The position numbers and the translations under genes are program-made. The notes under the pieces are model-generated. The model was given only the letters and a program-made list of their open reading frames with translations, ran no database searches and was not told where the DNA came from. DNA of 64,000 bases from Luteimonas sp. YGD11-2 (GTDB taxonomy: Bacteria; Pseudomonadota; Gammaproteobacteria; Xanthomonadales; Xanthomonadaceae): contig NZ_CP035376.1 of assembly GCF_004118975.1 (NCBI RefSeq), positions 1,054,001 through 1,118,000 on the forward strand. Reading direction: 5' to 3'. Positions 914-32,404 of the stretch are shown piece after piece (the stretch's first letter is position 1; each line of letters starts with the position of its first letter).

Positions 914-2272
<1,359 letters not shown>

Positions 2273-15660: not shown

Positions 15661-16083
15661 TCATCGCACCGATGGCCCCCGGTCCGTCGGGCCGACCACC
15701 TCACCGTCTTCCTTGGTGAACGGCTGCGCCAGCGGCGGCAGGATCTCCAGCACCACTTCGGAAGGCCGGCACAGCCGGGTGCCGGTGTCGGTGACCACGA
15801 ACGGGCGGTTGATCAGCACCGGGTGCGCGAGCATCGCGTCGAGCAACTGGTCGTCGGTCAGCGTCGGATCGTCGAGGCCCAGGTCGTCGTAGGGCGTGCC
15901 CTTGCGGCGCAGCGCATCGCGCACGCCGATGCCGGCGGCGGCGATCATCGCCACAAGCTGCTCGCGCGACGGCGGATCGCGCAGGTACTCGACCACCGTC
16001 GGCTCGATGCCGGAATGGCGGATCAGCGCCAGGGTATTGCGCGAGGTGCCGCAGGAAGGGTTGTGCCAGATGGTAGCGTCCAT
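15661..16083 (-). CDS. arsC: Arsenate reductase (glutaredoxin-dependent)
   Basis: A 140-residue cytoplasmic reductase that converts arsenate to arsenite for export. The active-site loop HNPSCGTSRNTL with catalytic Cys11 is intact. The arsenate-binding arginine region (PVLINRPFV) follows near residues 87-96. It lies 9 bp behind arsH on the same strand, so arsH and arsC form one transcript running away from arsR-arsB. The class is the glutaredoxin-type ArsC of enterobacterial plasmid R773 rather than the thioredoxin-linked type. Confidence 0.95.
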   Translation of the reverse strand: MDATIWHNPSCGTSRNTLALIRHSGIEPTVVEYLRDPPSREQLVAMIAAAGIGVRDALRRKGTPYDDLGLDDPTLTDDQLLDAMLAHPVLINRPFVVTDTGTRLCRPSEVVLEILPPLAQPFTKEDGEVVGPTDRGPSVR

Positions 16084-16092
16084 GGGTGGCCT

Positions 16093-16833
16093 TCAGGTTC
16101 CGGTGGAGGTGGCGGCCGCTGCCAGCGCGGCGGCGACCAGGTGGCCCTTGCGTTCGCTGTAGCGGCTGGTCAGGTAGTCGCTGTGGCCGCGCACCAGCAG
16201 GGTGAACTTCACCAGCTCCTCGATCACGTCGACCACGCGGTCGTACAGCGCCGAAGGCTTCATGCGGCCGGCCTCGTCGAACTCCTGCCAGGCCTTGGGC
16301 ACCGACGACTGGTTGGGGATGGTGACCATGCGCATCCAGCGCCCGAGCACGCGCATGGCGTTGACGGCGTTGAACGACTGCGAGCCGCCGCTGACCTGCA
16401 TCACCGCAAGCGTGCGGCCCTGGGTGGGGCGCATGCCGCCATCCTCGAGCGGCAGCCAGTCGATCTGGTTCTTGAACACCGCGGTGAGGGTGCCGTGGCG
16501 CTCCGGGCTCACCCATACCTGGCCCTCGGACCACAGCGACAGCGCCCGCAGCTCGCGCACCTTCGGGTGGTCGGCCTCGCAACTGCCCTGCACGGGCAGG
16601 TCGCGCGGATCGAACACCCGCGTCTCGGCGCCGAAGTGGCGCAGCAGGCGCTCGGCTTCCAGCGCCAGCTTGCGGCTGTAGGACTCCGGACGCAGCGAGC
16701 CGTAGAGGATCAGGATCCGCGGCGGGTGGCCGCCGTCGACACCGAGGCGGGCGGCATCGGGCACCTCGAGTGCGGCGGGGTCGATGTTGGGCAGGTCGTC
16801 GGGGACCGCGGTGATTGCGCGTTCGAAATTCAT
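16093..16833 (-). CDS. arsH: Arsenical resistance flavoprotein ArsH
   Basis: A 246-residue NADPH-dependent FMN reductase family protein. The FMN phosphate-binding loop [15 protein letters not shown] is near residues 55-69 and the ArsH-typical [21 protein letters not shown] follows. Characterised ArsH enzymes oxidise trivalent organoarsenicals or reduce quinones or metal oxyanions. It is the first gene of arsHC and starts only 17 bp from the divergent arsR. The predicted transcription start falls on the A of its ATG, and no Shine-Dalgarno sequence precedes it. Confidence 0.94.
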
Positions 16834-16844
16834 TCGACTATTCT
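16815..16844 (+). promoter_or_regulatory. Predicted arsR-arsB promoter (leaderless)
   Basis: -35 TTGCGC (16815-16820), an 18-nt spacer and -10 TATTCT (16839-16844). Seven nucleotides after the -10 box is the A of the arsR ATG (16851). The -35 box lies inside the arsH coding region. Confidence 0.55.
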
Positions 16845-16869
16845 AGAAACATGGAATTGAACGACGCAA
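16840..16869 (-). promoter_or_regulatory. Predicted arsH-arsC promoter (leaderless), overlapping arsR promoter
   Basis: Read on the minus strand: -35 TTGCGT (16869-16864), an 18-nt spacer and -10 TAGAAT (16845-16840). Seven nucleotides on is the A of the arsH ATG (16833). Its -10 box overlaps the arsR -10 box on the other strand, inside the palindrome TTCTAGAA (16841-16848). A single bound ArsR could block both. Confidence 0.55.
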
Positions 16870-17198
16870 GCACCGCGCTCTCCGCGCTGGGCCATGTCAC
16901 CCGCCTGTCGATCTTCCGCCAGCTTGTGGAGGCAGGCCCCGAGGGGCGCACGCCCGGGCAGATCGTCGAAGCGCTGTCGCTGCCCGGGGCCACGCTGTCG
17001 TTCCACCTCAAGGAACTCGCCGCTGCCGGGCTGATCGAGGGCGAGGCGCATGGCCGCAACATCTCCTACCGCGCCGACTTCGACGCCATGAACGGCCTGC
17101 TCGAATTCCTCACCCGCAACTGCTGCGATGGCGATGCCGGCCGTTGCGCGCCTGCCGCGCCCCCGTCGACCAAACGCGCGCCGGCGCGCAAGGCCTGA
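16851..17198 (+). CDS. arsR: ArsR-family arsenite-responsive repressor
   Basis: A 115-residue winged-helix repressor. The recognition helix region LPGATLSFHLKELAAAGLIE lies at about residues 44-63, with a wing in GEAHGRNISYR. The C-terminus carries C91-C92-x6-C99, a cysteine set resembling the As(III) site described for the Acidithiobacillus-type ArsR rather than the ELCVCDL motif of the R773 type. Starts upstream of 16851 would lie inside arsH. The gene is followed 3 bp later by arsB, so the repressor controls its own efflux pump. Confidence 0.92.
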   Translation: MELNDASTALSALGHVTRLSIFRQLVEAGPEGRTPGQIVEALSLPGATLSFHLKELAAAGLIEGEAHGRNISYRADFDAMNGLLEFLTRNCCDGDAGRCAPAAPPSTKRAPARKA

Positions 17199-17201
17199 TC
17201 C

Positions 17202-18488
17202 ATGCTGCTGGCGCTTGCGATCTTCGTCGTCACCATCGTGCTGGTGATCTGGCAGCCACGGGGCCTGAGCGTGGGCTGGAGCGCGAGTTTCGGCGCGTTG
17301 CTGGCGCTGGCCACCGGCGTGGTCGGCCTCGCGGACATCCCGGTGGTCTGGGGCATCGTCTGGAACGCCACGCTCACCTTCGTCGCGGTGATCCTCATCA
17401 GCCTGTTGCTGGACGAGGCCGGCTTCTTCGAATGGGCCGCGCTGCATGTCGCGCGCTGGGGTGGGGGCCGCGGGCGCACGCTGTTCGTGCTGCTGGTGCT
17501 TCTCGGCGCGGCGGTCTCGGCGCTGTTCGCAAACGACGGCGCCGCCCTCATCCTCACCCCGATCGTCATCGCCATGCTGCTGGCGCTGCGCTTCAGCCCC
17601 GCGGCCACGCTGGCCTTCGTGATGGCGGCCGGCTTCATCGCCGATACCGCCAGCCTGCCGCTGGTGGTGTCCAACCTGGTCAACATCGTCTCGGCGGACT
17701 ACTTCGGCATCGGCTTCGCCGAATACGCCGCGGTGATGGTGCCGGTGAACCTGGTCTCGGTGGCCGCCACGTTGCTGATGCTGTTGTGGTTCTTCCGTCG
17801 CGAGATCCCGGAGCGCTACGACGTCAGCCAGCTGAAGGACCCGCGCACCGCCATCCTCGACCGCACCACCTTCAATGCCGGCTGGGGCGTGCTGGCGATG
17901 CTGCTGGTGGGCTTCTTCGGGCTGGAGCGCGTGGGCGTGCCGATCAGCGCCGTCGCCGGCGCCGGCGCGCTGGTGCTGCTGGCGGTGGCGGCGCGGGGCC
18001 ATGTCATCCCCACCCGCAAGGTGCTGCGCGAGGCGCCGTGGCAGGTGGTGGTGTTCTCGCTGGGCATGTACCTGGTGGTGTACGGCCTGCGCAACCAGGG
18101 CCTCACCGACCACCTCGCCGTGCTGCTGGACGCCTTCGCCGGCCACGGCCTGTGGAGTGCCACGATGGGTACGGGCCTCCTCACTGCGTTCCTCTCCTCG
18201 GTGATGAACAACATGCCCACCGTGCTGGTGGGTGCCCTGTCCATCGATGCCAGCCAGGCCGAGGGCGTGGTGCGCGAGGCGATGATCTACGCCAACGTCA
18301 TCGGCAGCGACCTCGGGCCGAAGTTCACCCCCATCGGCAGCCTCGCCACCCTGCTGTGGCTGCACGTGCTGGCGCGCAAGGGCATCCGCATCACCTGGGG
18401 CTACTACTTCAGGGTGGGCATCGTGCTGACCCTGCCGGTGCTGCTGGTCACGCTGGCGGCGCTGGCGGTGAGGTTGAGTGTGGGGTGA
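17202..18488 (+). CDS. arsB: Arsenite efflux membrane protein ArsB
   Basis: A 428-residue inner-membrane antiporter with about 12 hydrophobic segments. It starts with [31 protein letters not shown] sequence (the WQPRGL block is typical of ArsB) and holds the conserved [16 protein letters not shown] and [11 protein letters not shown] stretches of the ArsB/NhaD ion-transporter superfamily. It exports arsenite using the proton gradient. No arsA ATPase gene is present, so it acts alone. It directly follows arsR. Confidence 0.96.
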
Positions 18489-18566
18489 GCGAGGACCGGC
18501 CGCGCGTGGATCGCGAAGCTCCCGCCATGGCCTGACGCTCGCCGCGGGAACGCCGAAGTTGGATGA

Positions 18567-18586
18567 TGCGTTGCAATTGCAACGCA
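18567..18586 (+). promoter_or_regulatory. 20-bp perfect palindrome, probable antitoxin operator
   Basis: TGCGTTGCAATTGCAACGCA is a perfect palindrome centred 22 bp before the start of the RHH-type antitoxin gene. Such sites are the usual autoregulatory operators of toxin-antitoxin modules. There is no other recognisable promoter between arsB and this gene, so the operator may cover the -10 region. Confidence 0.6.
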
Positions 18587-18598
18587 ACCGGGTCTGAG

Positions 18599-18874
18599 AT
18601 GAAAACGGCATTCCTCCCGTCCCTACGTGTCGATCCCGAACTCCGCAAGGCCGCCGAGTCGTTATTGCAGGAGGGCGAAAGCCTGTCCAGCTTCGTCGAG
18701 CAATCCGTGCGCGCGCAGGTCAAGCTGCGGCAGCAGCAGGAGGCGTTCATCGCCCGTGAGCTGGCCTCGCGGGATCAGGCGCGCGCGCACGGTCGTTATG
18801 TGGACGCCGCTGACGTCCTGACGGGGTTGGGGCGGCAGCTCGACCATGCGAGGAAGAAGGCAGCACAGATGTGA
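18599..18874 (+). CDS. Antitoxin, ribbon-helix-helix-like (YlcI/YnfO or ParD-like)
   Basis: A 91-residue small protein. The N-terminal FLPSLRVDPELRKAAESLL is the form of a ribbon-helix-helix strand and first helix, followed by GESLSSFVEQSVRAQVKLR and a charged C-terminal tail. It is followed with overlap by a broken ParE/RelE-type toxin, which identifies it as the antitoxin of a former type II module. The chosen ATG gives the conserved N-terminus; the frame upstream runs through the palindrome. The toxin is disrupted, so the protein is now probably an orphan regulator or is decaying. Confidence 0.75.
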   Translation: MKTAFLPSLRVDPELRKAAESLLQEGESLSSFVEQSVRAQVKLRQQQEAFIARELASRDQARAHGRYVDAADVLTGLGRQLDHARKKAAQM

Positions 18875-19154
18875 CCTTCCGCGTCCGCTTCACGGAGGAA
18901 GCGCAGGACGACCTCGACCGCAGCGAAGGCGGCTTCGCGATCCGGAGCGCGCACTCCAGTCCATCCATGACGGCATCCGGGTGCTCGAACTCGCGCCGCT
19001 TAGCTGCCGCCGCGCGGCCGGCGGCGATCCATTCCTGCGCGAACTGGTAATCGGCATCGGGGCCAGCGGCTACGTGATGCTGTTCGAGATCGAAGAGGCG
19101 CAGACGGTGACGGTGCTGGCCGTGCGGCATCAGCGCGAGGGCGATTACCGCTAG
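18871..19154 (+). pseudogene. ParE/RelE-family toxin, frameshifted
   Basis: The expected toxin N-terminus VTFRVRFTEEAQDDLDR begins at a GTG overlapping the antitoxin stop. After about 17 codons the similarity continues in another frame as ERALQSIHDGIRVLELAPLS, then the C-terminal FLRELVIGIGASGYVMLFEIE and VLAVRHQREGDYR with its own stop at 19152. The middle (the usual LYDFLLERD-like helix) is missing or scrambled around 18922-18945, so the gene has an indel or short deletion. In the first frame translation would run out at about 19048. A functional toxin is unlikely unless the shift is a sequencing error. Confidence 0.7.
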
Positions 19155-19480: not shown

Positions 19481-20368
19481 ATGGCCAACATCAGCAAGCG
19501 CCGCACCGGAGAACTGGTGCGAGAGCTGTTCAAGATCCTGCTCGCGCAGCCGGAGGGCATGCGAGCGGTCGACGCTCTGGCCGCGCTGGCGAGCTGCATC
19601 ACGATGACAGAGCACGAGGCCGGCGAGTACGAAACCGGTGGTCGACGCTTCGAGAAGATCGTCCGCTTCGGCACCGTAGCCCCGGTCAAGGCTGGTTGGA
19701 TGATCAAGGACAAGGGGGTCTGGACGGTCACATCTGAGGGCGAGGCTGCCCTGCAGGCCTTCCCGGATCCCGAGCAGTTCACGCACGCGGCGCGCGCGCT
19801 CTATAAAAAATGGAAGAGCGCACAGCCCGAACCTGCCGGCGACGAGGAAAGCGATGAGCTCACCGAAAGCTCCGCGACGATCACTCTAGAAGAAGCTGAG
19901 GAAATGGCTTGGGCGGAGATCGAGGCCTACTTGGCTGCGACACCGCCCTACGACTTCCAAGAGCTAGTCGCCGCTCTGCTCAAGGCGATGGGTTACCACG
20001 TGAGTTGGATCGCGCCGCCCGGCAAGGATGGCGGCGTGGACATCATTGCCTACAACGATCCGCTGGGTACCCGCCCGCCCCGGATCAAGGTCCAGGTCAA
20101 GCGCAACGCGAACTCGCCGCGCATCGATGTGATGGGACTGCGCAGTTTCATGGCTGTGCTCGCCGATGGCGACGTCGGGCTGTTCGTCGCGCTTTCCGGC
20201 TTTACCAAGGATGCTGACTACGAGGCGCGCCAGTCCCATCGCCGGGTCAGCCTGATCGATGCGCGTCGCTTGCTAGAGCTGTGGACCACGCATTACGCCC
20301 AACTGGATGATGGCGCCCGCGCGCGGCTGCCGCTGAAGCCGGTCTGGTTCCTGGTCGGGGACAAGTAA
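19481..20368 (+). CDS. Mrr-like restriction endonuclease
   Basis: A 295-residue protein with an N-terminal winged-helix (Mrr_N-like, about residues 8-95), a charged linker, and a C-terminal PD-(D/E)xK nuclease domain. The catalytic set is visible: E161 in FQELVAALLKAMGY, D187 in GGVDIIAY and Q205-x-K207 in KVQVKR. Mrr enzymes cut DNA carrying foreign methylation. Here the gene opens a type I restriction locus and is followed 3 bp later by a small unknown gene. I chose the ATG at 19481 because family similarity starts at MANISKRRTGELV and upstream codons are unrelated. Confidence 0.85.
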   Translation: MANISKRRTGELVRELFKILLAQPEGMRAVDALAALASCITMTEHEAGEYETGGRRFEKIVRFGTVAPVKAGWMIKDKGVWTVTSEGEAALQAFPDPEQFTHAARALYKKWKSAQPEPAGDEESDELTESSATITLEEAEEMAWAEIEAYLAATPPYDFQELVAALLKAMGYHVSWIAPPGKDGGVDIIAYNDPLGTRPPRIKVQVKRNANSPRIDVMGLRSFMAVLADGDVGLFVALSGFTKDADYEARQSHRRVSLIDARRLLELWTTHYAQLDDGARARLPLKPVWFLVGDK

Positions 20369-20371
20369 GTA

Positions 20372-20665
20372 ATGGCTGCGAACAACGAGCTCGACTTGCG
20401 GTTCTGGTTTGAGCACCGCAATGGCAAGCGCCTCTATCCCTATCGGCTTACCAATCAGAAGACCGGAAAGGTCGCTTTTCGGGTGGCGCGCCCCGGGACC
20501 GGTGCCAACCGCAACGAAAACCAGATCGAGCTGGAAGACGTGGAGGAAGTATTCCGCTATGTCTTCGCGCTCGGTTACTCGGTCCGCCTGCGCGGGCACG
20601 ATCCTAAATTCAACGGGCTTTACAGCCCCCACGGCCACAGCATCGTCAAGACCTCGGAGTCCTGA
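20372..20665 (+). CDS. Unknown 97-residue protein in the restriction locus
   Basis: I do not recognise a family. The protein is polar, with no signal peptide or membrane segment: an N-terminal ELDLRFWFEHRNGKRLYPYR, a central VAFRVARPGTG and a helix ELEDVEEVFRYVFALGYSVR. It lies 3 bp after the Mrr-like gene and 23 bp before hsdM on the same strand, so it belongs to the same transcript. It could be a small partner or modulator of the nuclease or methyltransferase; that is only inference from position. Confidence 0.7.
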   Translation: MAANNELDLRFWFEHRNGKRLYPYRLTNQKTGKVAFRVARPGTGANRNENQIELEDVEEVFRYVFALGYSVRLRGHDPKFNGLYSPHGHSIVKTSES

Positions 20666-20688
20666 CGGAGCACGAAGAAGCACACGCA

Positions 20689-22170
20689 ATGATCACAGGC
20701 ACCATCAAATCCCAGGTCGACCGCATCTGGGACGCTTTCTGGAGCGGCGGCATCTCCAACCCCATGGAGGTCATCGAGCAGATGACCTACCTGCTCTTCA
20801 TCAAGCGGCTGGACGAGCTGCACACGGTGCAGGAGAAGAAGGCCAACCGCCTCAAGCGCCCGATCGAGCGGCCGGTCTTCGACCCCGGCCAGCAGCACCT
20901 GCGCTGGTCGAACTTCCGCCAGTTGGGCGACCCGGCCGAGCTGTACCGGGTGGTGGCCGAGGAGGTCTTCCCCTTCATCAAGAACCTGGGCGGCGCGGAG
21001 GACTCCACCTACGCCACCCATATGAAGGATGCGCGCTTCACCATCCCCACGCCGGCGCTGCTGGCCCGGGTGGTGGACATGCTCGACGCCATCCCCATGG
21101 ACGACCGCGACACCAAGGGCGACCTGTACGAGTACATGCTCGGCAAGATCGCCTCGGCCGGGCAGAACGGGCAGTTCCGCACCCCGCGGCACATCATCAA
21201 GCTGATGGTGGAGATGATGGCGCCCAGGCCGTCTGACACCATTTGCGACCCGGCCTGCGGCACCGCCGGCTTCCTGGTCGCCGCCAGCGAATACCTCAGC
21301 GAGCACCACGGCCAGGAGATCTACGCAACGCCCGAGGCCGCGCGCCGCTTCAACCACGACACCTTCCACGGCTTCGACTTCGACAGCACCATGCTGCGGG
21401 TCGGCTCGATGAACATGCTGCTGCACGGGGTGGAGAACCCCGCCATCGAGAACCGGGACAGCCTCAGCGAAGGCCACGCCGGCGTGGCCGGGCAGTTCAG
21501 CCTGATCCTGGCCAACCCGCCGTTCGCCGGCTCGCTGGATTACGAGAGCACCGCCAAGGACCTGCAGCAGATCGTCAAGACGAAGAAGACCGAACTGCTG
21601 TTCCTGGCCCTGTTCCTGCGCCTGCTCAAGCCCGGCGGCCGCGCCGCGGTGATCGTGCCTGACGGCGTGCTGTTCGGCTCATCCAAGGCGCACAAGACAC
21701 TGCGGCGGATGCTGGTGGAGGATCAGAAGCTCGACGGCATCGTCTCCATGCCCTCGGGCGTGTTCCGCCCCTATGCCGGCGTGTCGACCGCAATCCTGCT
21801 GTTCACCAAGACCGACTCGGGCGGCACCGACAACGTCTGGTTCTACGACATGCAGGCCGACGGATACTCGCTGGACGACAAGCGCAACCCGCTGGATGCG
21901 GCGAAGCATGAGAGCAACAACCTGCCGGACATCCTGGCGCGCTGGCGCAACCGTGATCGCGAGGCGGGCCGCGCGCGCACCGAGCCGAGCTTTCTGGTGC
22001 CGAAGGACGAGATCGCCGGCAACGACTACGACCTGTCGATCAACCGCTACAAGGAAGTGGTGTACGAAGAGGTCGAGTACGACCCGCCACAGAAGATCCT
22101 TGCCGAGCTGAGGGAGCTGGAGACAGAGATCATGCGGGGAATGGAGGAGTTGGAGGGGATGCTGAAGTGA
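20689..22170 (+). CDS. hsdM: Type I restriction-modification methyltransferase subunit HsdM
   Basis: A 493-residue N6-adenine methyltransferase subunit. An N-terminal HsdM helical domain (DRIWDAFWSGGISNPMEVIEQMTYLLF) is followed by the AdoMet-binding motif DPACGTAGF at 187-195 and the catalytic NPPF at 276-279. With HsdS it methylates the target sequence and protects the host. Its stop overlaps hsdS by 4 bp. It appears intact and of normal length. Confidence 0.96.
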   Translation: MITGTIKSQVDRIWDAFWSGGISNPMEVIEQMTYLLFIKRLDELHTVQEKKANRLKRPIERPVFDPGQQHLRWSNFRQLGDPAELYRVVAEEVFPFIKNLGGAEDSTYATHMKDARFTIPTPALLARVVDMLDAIPMDDRDTKGDLYEYMLGKIASAGQNGQFRTPRHIIKLMVEMMAPRPSDTICDPACGTAGFLVAASEYLSEHHGQEIYATPEAARRFNHDTFHGFDFDSTMLRVGSMNMLLHGVENPAIENRDSLSEGHAGVAGQFSLILANPPFAGSLDYESTAKDLQQIVKTKKTELLFLALFLRLLKPGGRAAVIVPDGVLFGSSKAHKTLRRMLVEDQKLDGIVSMPSGVFRPYAGVSTAILLFTKTDSGGTDNVWFYDMQADGYSLDDKRNPLDAAKHESNNLPDILARWRNRDREAGRARTEPSFLVPKDEIAGNDYDLSINRYKEVVYEEVEYDPPQKILAELRELETEIMRGMEELEGMLK

Positions 22171-23363
22171 CGGTCGCGACTGCTACGCTCTACGAAGTCG
22201 CAGATATCAATCCGCGCTTTGATCGAGCTGAGTTCTCCAATCTGGCGGAAGTCGTCACCTTCGTTCCGATGGCGAAAGTATCCGAAGTGTCGGGTGCGAT
22301 CACCACAGAAGAACACCGCCCGGTCGGTGAGCTGCTTAAGGGCTTTACACCGTTTTCCGACCGGGATGTTCTGGTTGCGAAGATCACGCCGTGTTTCGAG
22401 AATGGAAAGATTGCTCACGCAAGAATCAGTAAACGCGCGGGGTTTAGCTCCACCGAGTTCCATGTCGTTCGTGCTGATACGGAGCGGCTTGATGATCGAT
22501 ATCTATTCCATTTCTTGCGGCAGCCCCTGATCCGCGTTCGTGGTGAGAAGCGGATGACCGGCAGTGGCGGTCAACGCCGCGTGCCGAAGGCATTCTTGGA
22601 AAGTTTGAAGGTGCCGCTTCCGCCGCTTGCGGAACAGCGCCGCATCGCGGCGATCCTGGACAACGCCAACGCGCTGCGCGCCAAGCGCCGCGAAGCCATC
22701 GCCAAGCTCGACCAGCTGTTGCAGTGCGTTTTTATCGACATGTTCGGCGACCCGGTGACGAACCCGAAAGGCTTGTCTGAATTATCGCTCGGCGAGCTTG
22801 TAAGCAGCACCAAGATTGGTCTGGTTCGCTCAGCCAATGAGTTCGGTGAAGATTTTGATATTCCCTACGTACGGATGGATGCGGTATCTGCCGATGGCAA
22901 ATTCCTGCCAGACAAGGTCAAGAAGACTAGCGCCAGCGAATCGGAGATGAGTGATTACGCGTTGGAGCCTGGCGACTTCCTTTTCAACACGCGTAACTCC
23001 AAGGAACTTGTTGGCAAGACATGCGTTTATAACGGGCCGCCGGGCTGGACGTTCAACAATAACCTGATGCGTATCAGGTTCAAGGAAGGGGTTGCATCTT
23101 CTGTGATTGCTATGCAATTCCAGTTCGGGCGCGTCAAGCGGGAACTCGAAAAGCGCAAGTCCGGGACCACGAGTGTCTATGCTGTTTATTGGCGGGAGTT
23201 GCAGTCACTTCCACTTTTGTTGCCACCAGCTAGCCAACAGCAAAAGTTCGCCGCCATCAAAGCGAAGATCGAAGCCCACAGGCGCGCCCTGCAACGCCAC
23301 GGGACCCAATTCGACGATCTCTTCGCCGGCGTCCGACAACGCGCCTTTGCCGGCACGCTTTAG
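22167..23363 (+). CDS. hsdS: Type I restriction-modification specificity subunit HsdS
   Basis: A 398-residue subunit with two target-recognition domains. TRD1 spans about residues 1-150 and ends PLPPLAEQRRIAAILD. A central conserved helix region (NALRAKRREAIAKLDQLLQ) follows. TRD2 then ends with the equivalent LPPASQQQKFAAIKAKIEAHRRAL. The TRDs decide the bipartite DNA target. Both TRD-coding stretches are visibly less GC-rich than the flanking conserved helices, as expected for exchanged recognition modules. The recognition sequence cannot be predicted. Confidence 0.95.
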   Translation: MTVATATLYEVADINPRFDRAEFSNLAEVVTFVPMAKVSEVSGAITTEEHRPVGELLKGFTPFSDRDVLVAKITPCFENGKIAHARISKRAGFSSTEFHVVRADTERLDDRYLFHFLRQPLIRVRGEKRMTGSGGQRRVPKAFLESLKVPLPPLAEQRRIAAILDNANALRAKRREAIAKLDQLLQCVFIDMFGDPVTNPKGLSELSLGELVSSTKIGLVRSANEFGEDFDIPYVRMDAVSADGKFLPDKVKKTSASESEMSDYALEPGDFLFNTRNSKELVGKTCVYNGPPGWTFNNNLMRIRFKEGVASSVIAMQFQFGRVKRELEKRKSGTTSVYAVYWRELQSLPLLLPPASQQQKFAAIKAKIEAHRRALQRHGTQFDDLFAGVRQRAFAGTL

Positions 23364-23366
23364 CTC

Positions 23367-23660
23367 ATGCCCGCCTACCAGCCGCCCTTCCAGCTCACCC
23401 ACCGCATGACCGCGCTCGTCGCGGACATCGCCGAACGGCTGGGCGCCTGGAAGGCGGCCAACCGCGGCGCGTTGCTGCCGGAGCTGCGCCGCGGCAACCG
23501 CATCCGCTCGCTGCAGGCTTCGCTGGCGATCGAGCAGAACACGCTGAGCGTGGAGCAGGTCACCGCGGTGCCAGCCTGCAAGCCGGTGCTGGTCTCGCCG
23601 AAGGTGATCAAGGGTCCGCTGACTGCGGTGGCTCGCTCGAGGCCATCCGCGACAGCCTGA
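23367..23660 (+). pseudogene. Fic-family protein remnant (N-terminus only)
   Basis: The 97 codons begin PPFQLTHRMTALVADIAERLGAW and continue RRGNRIRSLQASLAIEQNTLSVEQVTAV, which is the N-terminal Fic_N region of Fic adenylyltransferase proteins often found beside hsdS. The similarity stops soon after and the catalytic HxFxxGNGR motif is absent. The reading frame ends in unrelated sequence. The gene is a truncated relic sitting 3 bp after hsdS. Confidence 0.75.
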
Positions 23661-23776
23661 GAGGCTGTAGCCAACAAACACGGGTGGAAATGCAGGTAGA
23701 AGCGCGGGTGGAACCAGGGTCCGGCGGCGGTGACATTCGCCGGCGACGTGGCATGACAGTGGACGGGCTGATTTGA

Positions 23777-23786
23777 GTAATATTAC
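23777..23786 (+). promoter_or_regulatory. AT-rich palindrome GTAATATTAC upstream of ATPase gene
   Basis: A perfect 10-bp palindrome in a locally AT-rich patch, 51 bp before the ATPase start and upstream of its predicted -35 box. It stands out in this GC-rich sequence and could be an operator; no regulator is identified. Confidence 0.3.
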
Positions 23787-23802
23787 GATTCTTAGGGGGG
23801 AT

Positions 23803-23831
23803 TTGTAATCCGCATAAAGTGCCTATAGACT
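23803..23831 (+). promoter_or_regulatory. Predicted promoter of the AAA ATPase gene (leaderless)
   Basis: -35 TTGTAA (23803-23808), a 17-nt spacer and -10 TAGACT (23826-23831). The predicted start of transcription, seven nucleotides on, coincides with the ATG at 23838. No Shine-Dalgarno sequence is present (TCTCCCC precedes the ATG). Confidence 0.45.
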
Positions 23832-23837
23832 CTCCCC

Positions 23838-25031
23838 ATGGACCCGATCTCCAATCCCTACACCCCGGGTGCAGGCACCCAACCACCGGAACTCGCTGGC
23901 CGGGATGAACTGCTGGAAGCCGTCCGCATCGCAAGCGAGCGCGTGCGCGCCGGCCGTCATGCCAAGAGTGTGCTGATGATCGGCTTGCGCGGTGTCGGCA
24001 AGACCGTGCTGCTCGACCGGATGCGTCGGAATGCAGAGGCTGCGGGCATGGAGACGGTGCGCGTGGAGGCGCCGGAGGGCCGGTCGCTGCCGGCAATGCT
24101 GGCACCGCAACTCCGACAGGCCCTGCTGCGCCTGTCGAGGAAGGAGCAGGCAAAGGAACTGGCACTGCGAGGGTTGCGGGCACTTGCCGGCTTCGCCAAG
24201 GCCCTCAAGGTGAAGTTCGCGGACATCGAAGTCGGCATCGATCTGGAGCCCGAGCCGGGGCTGGCCGATAACGGTGATCTTGAACACGACCTGCAGGCAC
24301 TGCTCGAGGCCGCGGGAGCGGCCGCCGGTGCCGCCGGTAGCGCGCTGGTCCTGTTTGTCGATGAACTGCAGTACGTGCCCGAGGAGCAGCTGGCTTCGCT
24401 GATCACCGCGCTGCACCGGTGTGCCCAGCAACAGGTGCCGGTCATGCTGGTCGGCGCCGGCCTGCCGCAGCTGCCGGGGCAGATGGGCCGGGCCAAGTCG
24501 TATGCGGAACGCCTGTTCGATTTCCCGTTCGTAGGCCCGCTGGACGATGACGCGGCGCGCGCCGCGCTGGAGGTGCCGGCGGCCGAGTTGGGTGTGCGCT
24601 ACGAACCGGAGGCGACGGCGCGCGTGCTGGCGGCGACGGAGGGCTACCCCTACTTCCTGCAGGAGTGGGGAAAGCACGCCTGGGATGTCGCCGAAGCGCC
24701 GCCGATCGACTCGCAGGATGTCGAGATCGCGTCGCGCGAAGCGACTGCGGCGTTGGACGAGAGCTTCTTCCGGGTGCGCTTTGATCGCCTCACTCCGGCC
24801 GAGAAGCGCTACTTGCGCGCAATGGCCGAGTTGGGCCCGGGGCCACATCGCTCGGGCGATATCGCTGCAGTGCTGGGGCGAAAGGTCACGGCACTGGGTC
24901 CCACGCGCAACCAGCTGATTGCCAAGGGCATGGTCTGGAGCCCCAGTCACGGCGATACTGCGTTTACGGTGCCGATGTTCGACAGCTTCATGCGGCGGAT
25001 CATGCCGGGGGATGATTGGCGGACCGCGTAG
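23838..25031 (+). CDS. AAA-type ATPase between hsdS and hsdR
   Basis: A 397-residue cytoplasmic P-loop ATPase. Walker A is GLRGVGKT at residues 49-56 and Walker B is LVLFVDELQ at 169-177. A sensor-like region (MLVGAGLP) and a C-terminal winged-helix-like part (SGDIAAVLGRKVTALGPTRNQLIAKGMV) follow. It resembles the AAA_16/STAND-like or archaeal-type ATPases that bind DNA or act in defence; no effector domain is seen. It sits 52 bp before hsdR with its own promoter and may be co-transcribed with hsdR. Its role in the restriction locus is unknown. Confidence 0.82.
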   Translation: MDPISNPYTPGAGTQPPELAGRDELLEAVRIASERVRAGRHAKSVLMIGLRGVGKTVLLDRMRRNAEAAGMETVRVEAPEGRSLPAMLAPQLRQALLRLSRKEQAKELALRGLRALAGFAKALKVKFADIEVGIDLEPEPGLADNGDLEHDLQALLEAAGAAAGAAGSALVLFVDELQYVPEEQLASLITALHRCAQQQVPVMLVGAGLPQLPGQMGRAKSYAERLFDFPFVGPLDDDAARAALEVPAAELGVRYEPEATARVLAATEGYPYFLQEWGKHAWDVAEAPPIDSQDVEIASREATAALDESFFRVRFDRLTPAEKRYLRAMAELGPGPHRSGDIAAVLGRKVTALGPTRNQLIAKGMVWSPSHGDTAFTVPMFDSFMRRIMPGDDWRTA

Positions 25032-25083
25032 TGGGATTGAGCGCCCGCGCTGGACACAAGGCGCGAAAGCGGTGGGGGACGCA

Positions 25084-28000
25084 ATGACCAACTTCGATTT
25101 CTTGCAAGCCGAGTTCAAGCCGCTCTACGAACCGGCGCGCGGCGCCGAACAACTGGTTTACTCCGACCCGCGTGCCTGCTGCATGCGCACCCGGCATGCG
25201 CTGGAGCAGGCGGTGCACTGGCTGTACCAGCACGACCTCACCCTGCGGATGCCGTACGACAACGGCCTTGGCGTGCTGCTGACCCAGCCCGAGCTCGAGC
25301 GGCTGCTGCCCCCGCATATCCATCAGAAGACCCGGCTGATCCAGAAGCTGGGCAACCAGGCAGTGCACGGCACCGGCCGGATCGGCCCCGGTGATGCGAT
25401 GCGGCTGGTGCGGGAGCTGTTCCATGTGCTGTTCTGGCTGGCGCGCACCTACACCCGCGGCAGCGACCCGAAGAGCCTGGAGGCGACCTTTGACGAGAAG
25501 CGGGTGCCGCACCTGGTCCGCGCAGACGAGGCGGTGGCCTTCACCCGGGAGGAGCTGGAAAAGCAGGAAGCGAAGTTCCGCGCGCAGATCGAGGCGCAGC
25601 ACGCCGAGATCGAAGCACGCGAGGCGCGCATCGCCGAAACCAGTGCCAGCCTGGCCGAGCGCGAAGCGGCGCTGGCCGACCTGGACGCCCAGCTGGCACA
25701 GGCCCGCGCCCAGCTCGCCGAGGCCAAGGCCGCGAACCTGGCGGTGCCCGACACGCACGACTACCGCGAGGCCGACACACGCCGCTTCCTGATCGACGTG
25801 CTGCTGCGCGAGGCGGGCTGGGAAGTCGGCCGCGATGCTTCCGCCGAGGTGCCGGTCACCAGCATGCCCAACCAGAAAGGCGAGGGCTTCGTTGACTACG
25901 TGCTGTGGGGCCGCGACGGCAAGCCGCTGGCCGTGGTGGAGGCCAAGCGCAGCCTCGTCGACCCCGACGTGGGCCGTCAGCAGGCCAGGCTCTATGCTGA
26001 TTGCCTGGAGAAGGAGAAGGGCCAGCGGCCGCTGATCTTCTACACCAATGGCCACCGCACCTGGCTGTGGGACGACCGCCGCGCGCCACCGCGCGAGGTG
26101 CAGGGCTTCTACACCCGCGACGAACTGGAGCTGGCGATCCAGCGCCGCAGCCTGCAGCAGGACCTGAAGGGCCTGCCGGTGAACCGCGAGATCGCCGGGC
26201 GCGAGTACCAGATCCGCGCCATCCGCTCGATGGCCGAGGCCTTAGCGTCCGGGCGTCGCGCCGGTCTGCTGACCATGGCCACCGGCACCGGCAAGACCCG
26301 CATGTCGATCGCCCTGGTCGAGCTGCTGATGCGTGCCAACTGGGTGAAGCGGGTGCTGTTCCTGGCCGACCGGGTGGCGCTGGTGAACCAGGCTGTCAGT
26401 GCCTTCAAGACGCACCTGCCTGGTTCCAGTCCGGTGAACCTGGTAACGGAGAAGGACGGGCAGGGGCGCGTCTACCTGTCCACCTACCCCACGATGATGG
26501 GCCTGATCGAGCAAATGGAAGGCGACCGCCGCCGCTACGGCGTCGGTCACTTCGACCTGGTGATCATCGACGAGGCCCACCGCAGCGTGTACCAGAAGTA
26601 CGGCGCGATCTTCCGCTACTTCGACAGCTATCTCGTCGGCCTGACCGCCACCCCGCGCGACGAGGTGGACCGCGACACCTACCACCTGTTCGGGTTGGAG
26701 ACCGGCGTCCCCACCGATGCCTACGGGCTCGAAGAGGCGGTGGCCGATGGCTACCTGGTGCCGCCGCGGGCGCAGTCGGTGCCGATCCGGTTCGTGCGCG
26801 AAGGCATCCGCTACGACGAGCTCAGCGAGGCCGAGAAGGAACACTGGGAGTCGCTGGATTGGGGCGACCGGGACGAGGCACCCGACGAGATCCACGCCTC
26901 CGAGGTCAACAAGCAGCTGTTCAACGAAAGCACCATCGACCTGATGCTCAAACACCTGATGGAGCATGGACTGAAGGTGGACGGCGGCGACCGGCTGGGC
27001 AAGACCATCATCTTCGCGGTGAACCAGCGCCACGCCGAGTTCATCGCCAGGCGCTTCGACCACCACTACCCGCAGTACAAGGGCGAGTTCGCGCGGGTGA
27101 TCACCCATTCGGTGAAGTACGCGCAGAGCCTGGTCGACGCTTTCAGCCAGACAGGCAAGCTGCCGCAGATCGCGATCTCGGTCGACATGATGGACACCGG
27201 TATCGACGTGCCGGAGGTCGTGAACCTGATGTTCTTCAAGGCGGTGCGCTCGAAGGTGAAGTTCCTGCAGATGATCGGCCGAGGCACCCGCCTTTGCCCG
27301 GACCTGTTCGGTCCGGGGCAGGACAAGACCGAGTTCCTGATCTTCGATTTCTGCCAGAACTTCGAGTACTTCAACGAGCACCCGGCAGGTGCCGCGTCGC
27401 CGCTGAGCGAGCCGTTGGGGAAGCGGCTGTTCAAGAAGCGGCTGGAGTTGTTATCGCTGCTACCTGTTGAGGAGAAGGAGGCGACAACGAAGGCAGCAGA
27501 CGGTCACGCCGACTATTCCGCGCTGACACAGCTGCGCCAGGACCTGGTCGACGGCTTGCATGGCGAGGTCGCGGCCATGAACCAGGACAACTTCATTGTC
27601 CGCACCGAGCTTGAGCACGTATTCCGTTTTGCTAAGCGCGAGCGCTGGGAGACGCTTGCCGAGACCGATCTGGTGGAACTGCGCGAGCATGTGGCCGGCC
27701 TGCCTAGCGAGCTGGAGCACGGGCACATCACTGCCCGCCTGTTCGACCTGGCCTGCCTCAACCTGCAGATCGCCCTGGTCAACGCGACCGCAGACTTTCT
27801 CACCTGGCGCGACAAGGTCATCGAGATCGCCAGCAATCTGGAAGGCAAGGACGCCATTCCTGCAGTCAAGGCTCAGCTGCCGCTGATCCAGGAACTGCAG
27901 ACGGAGACCTTCTGGCAGGACATCACGCTGCCGATGATCGAGAACGTGCGCCGCAGGATCCGTGGGCTGGTGCAGTTCGTGGACAAGACGTCCAGCACGC

Positions 28001-28548
28001 CGGTGTACACCGCGTTGGACGACGAGATCGGCGAGGGTAGCGAGGTGACGCTGACCAGTTTCAGCGCCGGCATCAACCTGGCGCAGTACAAGCGCAAGGT
28101 CGAAGCCTACATCCGTGCCAACGAGAACCATGTCGCTATCGCCAAGCTCCGCCACAACAAGCCACTGACACCCATCGATCTGGAGGAGCTGGAGCGGTTC
28201 GTGTACGGAGCGGAAGTCGTGGGTGGGCGGGAGACGTTCGAAAAGTACTATGGCGACGAGCGGCCGCTGGCGGTGTTCATCCGCTCGCTGGTGGGATTGG
28301 ACCGCAATGCCGCCAAGGAAGCGTTCGCGCAGTTCCTCGACGCGAACCGCTATGGCGCGCAGCAAATCAGGTTCGTGGAGATGATCATCGACCGGCTGAC
28401 CCATAGCGGCGTGATCGAACCCGCCCAAATGTACGAACCGCCGTTTACGGCTATCCATTACGAAGGCGTGGATGGCGCGTTTGGCGATGCCGACGCAGAG
28501 GCGATTTTCCAGATCGTGTCGGCCATCAACTTGCGTGCGGCCGCGTAG
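25084..28548 (+). CDS. hsdR: Type I restriction endonuclease subunit HsdR
   Basis: A 1154-residue motor and nuclease subunit of the EcoEI-like class. An N-terminal DUF4145-like helical domain (1-125) is followed by a long charged coiled coil (about 155-217) and the nuclease domain with D271 and E287-x-K289 (VEAK). The SF2 helicase motor holds Walker A ATGTGKT at 399-405 and DEAH at 496-499, and ends in an EcoEI_R-type C-terminus. It appears complete. The ATG at 25084 has no strong Shine-Dalgarno; upstream codons in frame overlap the ATPase gene and are not family-like. Confidence 0.95.
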   Translation: MTNFDFLQAEFKPLYEPARGAEQLVYSDPRACCMRTRHALEQAVHWLYQHDLTLRMPYDNGLGVLLTQPELERLLPPHIHQKTRLIQKLGNQAVHGTGRIGPGDAMRLVRELFHVLFWLARTYTRGSDPKSLEATFDEKRVPHLVRADEAVAFTREELEKQEAKFRAQIEAQHAEIEAREARIAETSASLAEREAALADLDAQLAQARAQLAEAKAANLAVPDTHDYREADTRRFLIDVLLREAGWEVGRDASAEVPVTSMPNQKGEGFVDYVLWGRDGKPLAVVEAKRSLVDPDVGRQQARLYADCLEKEKGQRPLIFYTNGHRTWLWDDRRAPPREVQGFYTRDELELAIQRRSLQQDLKGLPVNREIAGREYQIRAIRSMAEALASGRRAGLLTMATGTGKTRMSIALVELLMRANWVKRVLFLADRVALVNQAVSAFKTHLPGSSPVNLVTEKDGQGRVYLSTYPTMMGLIEQMEGDRRRYGVGHFDLVIIDEAHRSVYQKYGAIFRYFDSYLVGLTATPRDEVDRDTYHLFGLETGVPTDAYGLEEAVADGYLVPPRAQSVPIRFVREGIRYDELSEAEKEHWESLDWGDRDEAPDEIHASEVNKQLFNESTIDLMLKHLMEHGLKVDGGDRLGKTIIFAVNQRHAEFIARRFDHHYPQYKGEFARVITHSVKYAQSLVDAFSQTGKLPQIAISVDMMDTGIDVPEVVNLMFFKAVRSKVKFLQMIGRGTRLCPDLFGPGQDKTEFLIFDFCQNFEYFNEHPAGAASPLSEPLGKRLFKKRLELLSLLPVEEKEATTKAADGHADYSALTQLRQDLVDGLHGEVAAMNQDNFIVRTELEHVFRFAKRERWETLAETDLVELREHVAGLPSELEHGHITARLFDLACLNLQIALVNATADFLTWRDKVIEIASNLEGKDAIPAVKAQLPLIQELQTETFWQDITLPMIENVRRRIRGLVQFVDKTSSTPVYTALDDEIGEGSEVTLTSFSAGINLAQYKRKVEAYIRANENHVAIAKLRHNKPLTPIDLEELERFVYGAEVVGGRETFEKYYGDERPLAVFIRSLVGLDRNAAKEAFAQFLDANRYGAQQIRFVEMIIDRLTHSGVIEPAQMYEPPFTAIHYEGVDGAFGDADAEAIFQIVSAINLRAAA

Positions 28549-29361: not shown

Positions 29362-29447
29362 GTTGGTGCATGTGGGAAGGTTGACAGTCATGACACCCGC
29401 CGCAGCGCTGTGTAGATTCAGGGCCTGAATGGATGCGGGAGACAAGG

Positions 29448-30419
29448 ATGTCGACACTTTGGATCGTCGTTGGCGATACGACCACGAACGGGGGCGCCGT
29501 GATCGCGGGTTCCCCTTTCACGGATGTGCACGGCAAGCCCGTCGCCAGGATAGGTGACGCTGTCGTGTGCGGCCTGCACGGGCCGACATCCATTGCATCG
29601 GGCGACAGCACTCCGATCATCGACGGCGCACCTGTGGCGCGCCACGGTGACAAGTGCGCCTGCGGGTGCTCACTGTTGGCAGTAAGACAGATGTCGACCT
29701 CAGTGGAATCCGCGCCATCGTTTGCCCGCCGGGCTGATGCATCTGCGGTGGGCACTGCCACCGCTGCAGTGATGGGTGCAGTTGCACGAGCCAAGCAGGA
29801 GCAGGAGGAGCACACAGCTGCGGTTGGGTTCGATGGGCGAAGGACTGCTGCCGGCGTCGTAGATCCGTCCAAGGCCCGGGACGCCGTGCGCGACGCCAAT
29901 ACGGCGCTCCGCGAAGCTGGGGCCTACCGGTCCTATGACACGGAACTCGAGGCAGCGCACGCCTGGAGGCAGCACGTGCTGCCCGTGGCGGACAAACACG
30001 GTGTAGAGATCGGTGCCCTGATCACCCGAGATGCCTCGGGGCAGTACCACCTGGGGCCTGCGTTCTCGAACGGCGCTTACGACAACGTCAACGGCCTCCT
30101 CGAGAATGGCCAGCAGGTCGCCGGTACAACCACCGCCTACATCCACACGCATCCCTACCCAGGCGGTTGGGTGGGTGCTGACCGGTCGTTCGCGTTCGGT
30201 GAGGAACCGGACATCACCCGAAGTGGTCTCCTGGGTGGGACCAACATGGGACCGGACGTCGCTGGCGATCTCGTGTCCGCCTACAGTGAGCAGCTCAACG
30301 CATACATCGCCGACAGTGCCGGCCTGCACCAGTTCGATTACAGGCGATACGTGGAACTGCAGCGCCAAAACGCTGGCGGCGTGCGCCTGGGCGACGCTTT
30401 CAGGAGCCTGGGACCATGA
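29448..30419 (+). CDS. PAAR-domain putative type VI secretion effector
   Basis: A 323-residue protein. Residues 1-80 form a PAAR domain (TTTNGGAVIAGSP, PVARIGDAVVCGLHG, ARHGDKCACG), the cone that sharpens the VgrG spike of type VI secretion. After a linker, the C-terminal part (about 140-323) holds AYIHTHPYPGGW, a His-rich motif like those of DUF4329/JAB-like toxin domains; the activity is unproven. The stop overlaps a lipoprotein gene by 4 bp, the usual place for an immunity gene. I chose the ATG at 29448, preceded by GGAGACAAGG. No vgrG or structural T6SS genes lie in the window. Confidence 0.78.
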   Translation: MSTLWIVVGDTTTNGGAVIAGSPFTDVHGKPVARIGDAVVCGLHGPTSIASGDSTPIIDGAPVARHGDKCACGCSLLAVRQMSTSVESAPSFARRADASAVGTATAAVMGAVARAKQEQEEHTAAVGFDGRRTAAGVVDPSKARDAVRDANTALREAGAYRSYDTELEAAHAWRQHVLPVADKHGVEIGALITRDASGQYHLGPAFSNGAYDNVNGLLENGQQVAGTTTAYIHTHPYPGGWVGADRSFAFGEEPDITRSGLLGGTNMGPDVAGDLVSAYSEQLNAYIADSAGLHQFDYRRYVELQRQNAGGVRLGDAFRSLGP

Positions 30420-31030: not shown

Positions 31031-31133
31031 CTCAGGCCGCCATTTACCGCCCTTTGCTCGCAGTCGTGTGCGCTGGCGTCGGCGCAGCGCTGCATGGCGG
31101 GAGTCGTCCTCGGCAGCGCGGCGCAGCTGTCGA
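31031..31133 (-). pseudogene. Degenerate copy of the 3' end of the copper-binding protein gene
   Basis: These ~100 bp closely match 32046-32150, the 3' end of the Cys-rich copper-binding gene, with scattered substitutions and an insertion of about 8 bp. One minus-strand frame still reads MQRCADASA, the counterpart of MQRCADACAECARHC in the intact gene. It is a partial, decayed duplicate. Confidence 0.7.
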
Positions 31134-31134
31134 C

Positions 31135-31255
31135 TCAGGACAGGAAATCCACCAGCAATTTGCGCTTGTCGACCGGCAGCTTGCGGAAAGCGGCGAGCAG
31201 GCTGGCCTCCTTGTCGCTGAGGCGCCGCGAGGTGGGAGGCGGCTCGCCGGCGCCC
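31135..31255 (-). pseudogene. Orphan C-terminal gene fragment, possibly a regulator tail
   Basis: On the minus strand this stretch encodes SRRLSDKEASLLAAFRKL and then PVDKRKLLVDFLS with a stop at 31135. It reads like the helical C-terminus of a small DNA-binding regulator (XRE-like), but nothing upstream on that strand continues the domain. I cannot name the source family; the call rests on natural-looking composition and its location between two other broken ends. Confidence 0.35.
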
Positions 31256-32047: not shown

Positions 32048-32404
32048 TCAGGCCGCCATTTCCTCGCAGTGGCGTGCGCACTCGGCGCAGGCATCGGCGC
32101 AGCGCTGCATGGCGGGGTCGTCCTTGGCCATCGCGGCGCAGCTTTCGGCGCAGGCGCGGCAGATCGCGGCGCAGGCAGCGCAGGTGTGCACGTGCACGTC
32201 GGCGCCGCGCAGCATGGTGTCGGCGCTGGTCCTGCAGATATCGGCGCAGGCCATCATCAGCGTCATGTGCGCGTGTTCCACGTGCCGGCCGCCCTGGCGC
32301 AGGCAGTGGGCGATGGTCTCCAGGCAGATGGCGTGGCACTCGGTGCAGGCCTGGATGCAGTCGTCGAGATGGCCGGACTGCGCGGTGTCGTGGTCGTGAT
32401 GCAT
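32048..32404 (-). CDS. Cys-rich four-helix copper-binding protein (Csp-like, DUF326)
   Basis: A 118-residue protein with about 16 cysteines spaced as CxxxC and CxxC along predicted helices (CIQACTECHAICLETIAHC, CAACAAICRACAESC, CADACAECARHC). This matches the four-helix-bundle copper storage proteins (Csp family), which bind many Cu(I) ions inside the bundle. It has a His-rich N-terminus (MHHDHD) and no signal peptide, so it is the cytosolic Csp3-like type. The upstream ATGs would add an unrelated Arg/Pro-rich extension. Confidence 0.82.
   Translation of the reverse strand: MHHDHDTAQSGHLDDCIQACTECHAICLETIAHCLRQGGRHVEHAHMTLMMACADICRTSADTMLRGADVHVHTCAACAAICRACAESCAAMAKDDPAMQRCADACAECARHCEEMAA

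Follow-up and report, generated by a model that had tools for sequence, protein, structure and literature searches.

The seven genes that the initial annotation had read as one composite restriction island in Luteimonas sp. YGD11-2 are probably not one machine, and look like an ordinary type I system lying behind the gene of an Mrr-type nuclease near purA. In our preferred reading, to which we assign a probability of roughly two in three, the purA side of the chromosome is a defence hotspot in Lysobacteraceae, where the Mrr stays while type I systems are exchanged behind it, the two nucleases provide complementary restriction, and a Fic gene and an AAA ATPase gene are separate cargo. The analysed stretch (64,000 bases, positions 1054001–1118000 of a 3.2-Mb single-contig genome) is called the window below. 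Sequence comparisons support the gene identities, the linkage of mrr to type I genes, the change of partners, the chromosomal anchor and the turnover of cargo.

The ORFs, their order and their spacings were confirmed as annotated, and Pfam backs the naming of the Mrr, hsdM, hsdS, ATPase and hsdR genes. On the forward strand, the mrr-like gene (19481–20368; 295 aa; Mrr_cat 82.3 bits, Pfam cut-off 21) is followed after 3 bp by the ORF of a 97-aa protein (20372–20665) and, 23 bp after the latter, by hsdM (20689–22170), which contains N6_Mtase (219.1 bits; cut-off 20.4) and HsdM_N (62.8; cut-off 24.5). The hsdS gene (22167–23363) overlaps hsdM by 4 bp and matches Methylase_S in two stretches, as in an HsdS with two target-recognition domains. 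Next come the N-terminal piece of a Fic gene (23367–23660), the AAA ATPase gene (23838–25031; AAA_16, 61.4 bits) and hsdR (25084–28548), with HSDR_N (30.6 bits; cut-off 25.1), ResIII (123.1; 22.5), EcoEI_R_C (81.7; 24) and DUF4145. From knowledge of the family, the type I enzyme should cut DNA that enters without the cell's own adenine methylation. Past the island, the start of an ORF at 29433–30419 reads as PAAR-repeat-like, with a long C-terminal part, and the downstream flank carries two 70-base copies (31070–31139 and 32085–32154; 79% identical, 1015 bases apart).

Three genes of the region had gone unnoticed in the initial annotation. A putative antitoxin gene (18563–18874, forward strand; no Pfam family, named from its place) precedes a ParE-like toxin gene (18846–19154, forward strand; ParE_toxin 29.2 bits, cut-off 23), whose N- and C-terminal parts, on reading all three frames, sit in different frames; the third is purA (980–2272, forward strand), named adenylosuccinate synthetase by reading. 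We note that ArsC-, ArsH-, ArsR- and ArsB-like genes, also identified by reading, lie at 15661–18488, directly upstream of the toxin-antitoxin remnant.

Of 395 genomes of the family, 32 contain an Mrr match at E ≤ 1e-20; after three weak matches were dropped, the Mrr set contains 29 loci (the window, L054, L057 and L105–L130). Unbroken copies share 66–83% identity with the Mrr of the window, and D187, Q205 and K207 are invariant in all 26 of them (window included). The protein has an Mrr_cat domain together with the D and QxK residues; the active site of E. coli Mrr is given as PD-QxK in PMC12707154. The N-terminal winged-helix domain Mrr_N scores 22.7 bits against a Pfam cut-off of 29.5. The protein resembles the PADLOC candidate PDC-S02 (4.9e-39) and mREase_IV (1.1e-9) in that it matches both models; the PDC-S02 label tells little of the mechanism, since these models also score a YhcG-type nuclease of different domain make-up. 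Judging from its family, we infer that the Mrr is type IV-like and cuts foreign-methylated DNA. In L128, L129 and L130, which belong to one genus group, mrr is frame-broken, and a type I hsdM still adjoins it. The Mrr loci are not independent, as 14 of the 29 genomes fall into genus group g6 (g6 and g9 may be Xanthomonas). Small toxin-antitoxin genes often precede mrr: among the 26 loci L105–L130, the putative antitoxin has a match ahead of mrr in 18 (49–77% identical) and the ParE-like protein in 16.

The proximity of the Mrr-like nuclease to type I restriction is not due to chance. In 24 of 29 Mrr loci, mrr has a type I hsdM no more than 6 kb away (that of the window from Pfam), and in 21 of these 24 the two genes point in the same direction, so the proposal of the initial annotation that classical and Mrr-type restriction are paired here seems a fair one. 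With the same HsdM queries, which were taken from the Mrr loci themselves, the count is 24/29 for Mrr loci versus 0/11 for loci of the ATPase. No type I hsdM was found in L057, L122, L123, L125 and L127 (5 of 29 Mrr loci; L127 is a 4.9-kb contig), and L122 carries Eco57I-type methylase genes instead.

The partners are diverse. Mrr-linked HsdMs fall into nine subfamilies (M1–M5 and M7 Pfam-confirmed by one member each, M6, M8 and M9 assigned by similarity alone), and 21 of 36 pairs of their representatives align, at 24–35% identity. On a tree of the 26 unbroken Mrrs, in which 9 of 23 inner branches are unresolved, at least 14 changes of partner state are needed, compared with a minimum of 10 for 11 states and an average of 18.5 for shuffled labels; partner type is therefore clustered on the tree and yet has been exchanged repeatedly. 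The Mrrs of the window and L054 have the same partner type but are not sister rows in the tree.

The exchange leaves a boundary in the DNA. Using L106, L107 and L108 as references and considering similarity that spans mrr at ≥75%, we found that similarity across partner types mostly ends +818 to +896 from the start of mrr, which itself ends near +888; an exception is L105/L106, a pair with different partners that remains similar to +1098, beyond mrr. With nine HsdM subfamilies behind it and breaks mostly at the 3' end of mrr, this is a site at which unrelated type I families are swapped. Similarity between Mrr loci often also spans kilobases upstream, and compared with L108, 8 of 23 loci of other partner states become similar again some 10 kb downstream, beyond a restriction system that differs. 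The window resembles the three reference loci only in mrr and in portions of the toxin-antitoxin pair; it also shares the purA region with many Mrr loci, and about 140–190 bp of its downstream flank recur in L111 and L114.

Most Mrr loci are found at one chromosomal site. In 19 other genomes and in the window, purA is located upstream of mrr and points the same way, which places 20 of 29 Mrr loci on the purA side, and purA thus behaves as a conserved chromosomal anchor of the kind expected for an exchange island. The distance from purA to mrr ranges from 105 to 13263 bp in the 19 other genomes; by coordinates it is 17.2 kb in the window, where other genes fill about 17 kb between the two. Upstream of mrr, purA was not found in L054 (about 9 kb covered), L118, L121, L124 and L126 (about 29 kb covered), and L115, L127, L128 and L130 end at contig ends.

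A rival explanation is mere neighbourhood: mrr would be just the usual occupant of a recombination hotspot beside purA and would have no functional link with the type I genes. Exchange by recombination in the flanks requires no function, and among the five Mrr loci in which no type I hsdM was found are two (L123 and L125) with mrr 105–115 bp behind purA. This explanation fits less well with the five places where no purA was found, since mrr sits beside type I genes there too, nor does it readily explain why mrr and hsdM DNA is common to L106, L118 and L121 when their upstream flanks are not. From these two observations the mrr–hsdM pair seems to move together, and we consider mere neighbourhood unlikely, though worth keeping in mind.

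The 97-aa protein was rightly listed as unknown by the initial annotation, as the ORF has no match at E ≤ 0.1 in Pfam, PADLOC, NCBIfam or PHROGs. It is nevertheless a member of a real family, with 34 homologous protein clusters in the database (85 by profile), and its structure model is confident (pLDDT 86.9), with one helix and seven strands; the pI of the protein is 9.6. The family is also optional. Seven strong copies are distributed over loci with mrr (3), with hsdM (4) and with neither (2), some having both. In L053, the 97-aa gene is accompanied by type I genes and a longer Fic gene near purA, with no mrr match. We see this small protein as an optional helper that most likely binds nucleic acid or protein and regulates the nuclease or methylase encoded next to it.

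A closer tie is conceivable, namely that Mrr, the 97-aa protein and the type I system form a three-part unit in which the small protein licenses or restrains the nuclease. The genes mrr, 97-aa and hsdM are adjacent in both the window and L054 in differing surroundings, a 97-aa gene follows mrr in L057 as well, and two weak relatives sit in other type I loci, one of them just behind a GmrSD-like gene. The confident structure model also counts in favour. However, the strong copies are split as described above, the copy in L057 has an inner stop, and 22 of the 24 Mrr loci with a type I hsdM nearby gave no 97-aa match; three further weak matches lie inside proteins of 362–376 aa, in loci without type I hsdM. 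We therefore regard such a unit as improbable. Two of the loci with weak similarity deserve a description of their own. In L058 (8040–10181), the GmrSD-like gene is followed directly by the diverged 97-aa relative, behind a type I system, and in L059 (9250–10659) a 469-aa protein between hsdS and hsdR is weakly 97-aa-like at its N-terminus and has a weak PDC-S11 match near its C-terminus.

The gap between hsdS and hsdR is a cargo bay. Among 16 loci with hsdM and hsdR (mechanical ORFs; three loci without a found hsdM left out), the gap holds, in addition to hsdS, an ORF of 200 aa or more in ten and no such ORF in five, L028 being unclear. The near relatives L053 and L054 (the latter also read as L002) contain longer Fic ORFs in this place (329 and 336 aa, respectively), and the claim of a Fic relic in the window holds, as 82 residues of the piece are 85–89% identical to the start of these ORFs. 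The L054 ORF matches Fic in Pfam and scores as SoFic in PADLOC (2.4e-46); the window differs in keeping only about 82 N-terminal residues, which give no Pfam match and lack the complete Fic domain of SoFic. DNA similarity to the window stops at 23599 (L053) or 23604 (L054) and, for either relative, sets in again at 25074, so the segment 23600–25073 with the ATPase gene stands in place of the remainder of fic. We also observed two further small ORFs between fic and hsdR in L053 (one nucleotidyltransferase-like by reading), which is more cargo turnover, and an ORF of 276–278 aa after hsdS in L002 (12934–13764), L026 and L027, alike by reading, whose L002 copy matches PADLOC PDC-S32.

The ATPase is apparently a lone mobile gene that arrived separately. 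It was found in 11 of 395 genomes of the family, including this one, and 11 loci in ten other genomes were compared. A search with 24 HsdM proteins of nine subfamilies found no type I hsdM in any of these 11 loci (three stretches shorter than 12 kb). Five other copies align with the DNA of the window over the gene itself plus 37 bases or fewer ahead of it; two more do so over parts of the gene, and the remaining copies hardly or not at all. One of the five, L131, has a separate DNA match to the window 9 kb off, over another gene. A promoter of its own for the ATPase gene, as claimed by the initial annotation, seems plausible: a consensus scan found none, but 5 of the 10 copies read have a TATAGA/TATAAT box directly ahead of the ATG.

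According to the hotspot reading, the stable resident would be the Mrr-type nuclease, often behind a small toxin-antitoxin pair. The type I enzyme would cut unmodified DNA and the Mrr wrongly methylated DNA, such that both kinds of invader may be covered, and a changing type I module could renew the specificity. The Fic and ATPase genes would be separate cargo of the hsdS–hsdR gap, Fic being present here as a relic and the ATPase having probably come alone. The activities, the exchange route and the benefit of the pairing are inferences.

If the Mrr is indeed methylation-dependent, it must tolerate the methylation of each resident type I system. A bolder speculation, which we consider a long shot, is as follows: the Mrr might act as a gatekeeper that attacks chromosomes methylated by a newcomer incompatible with it, such that only tolerated type I modules settle, and the 97-aa protein might optionally tune the tolerance for the type I subfamily of the window.

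We also compared the locus from the side of hsdM and hsdR. HsdR relatives (E ≤ 1e-100; up to 2 candidates scored per genome) occur in 20 of the 398 genomes searched in the order, counting this one, and 15 of 21 other places were compared, the six left out being 34–37% identical. In none of the 15 loci did mrr, the 97-aa gene, the ATPase gene or the Fic piece have a match at E ≤ 1e-5 (at least 3.8 kb upstream of hsdM being covered in 11 of them), an outcome that the initial annotation had itself named as speaking against its reading and which places the extra genes outside the system defined by this hsdM and hsdR. A single integrated defence system of seven genes, in which the ATPase would be the sensor and the 97-aa protein the adaptor, is very improbable: the seven genes are all on one strand, with spacings from mrr to hsdS between a 4-bp overlap and 23 bp, but no compared locus has the seven-gene order, none of the 15 compared hsdR relatives matched an extra gene, no type I hsdM turned up near the ATPase in the 11 loci elsewhere, and Fic is a relic in the window. 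As weak Fic-like matches occur in 2 of these 11 ATPase loci (L133 and L141; 25% and 33%), a tie between Fic and the ATPase is conceivable.

Besides correcting the impression of a composite seven-gene machine, our results point to a purA-side defence hotspot in Lysobacteraceae and show that restriction loci have a further accessory, a small protein of an uncharacterised family. They also provide a natural experiment, in which one Mrr lineage has been kept next to nine type I subfamilies, for the most part at a single place in the chromosome.

Comparable islands have been described in enteric bacteria. In PMC12707154, the immigration control region (ICR) of E. coli and its relatives is presented as an island whose conserved anchor genes enclose type I families that replace one another, together with type IV nucleases (Mrr among them) and toxin-antitoxin genes. 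The loci studied here are alike in combining a conserved anchor, exchanged type I families, Mrr and toxin-antitoxin genes in one island; they differ in that the anchor is purA and that a single Mrr lineage is retained, with many type I subfamilies taking turns behind it. The second comparison is with the RptR/DarTG2 island of EPEC (PMC12255303). RptR is described there as a 79-aa protein with at least four helices, helix 4 being the recognition helix; the 97-aa protein was considered as a regulator of this type and is set apart from that description by its length and by its one helix and seven strands. The likeness lies in the exchangeable defence cargo, as that paper likewise suggests that the hsdS–hsdR gap holds cargo; the cargo in the window is instead a Fic relic and an ATPase gene.
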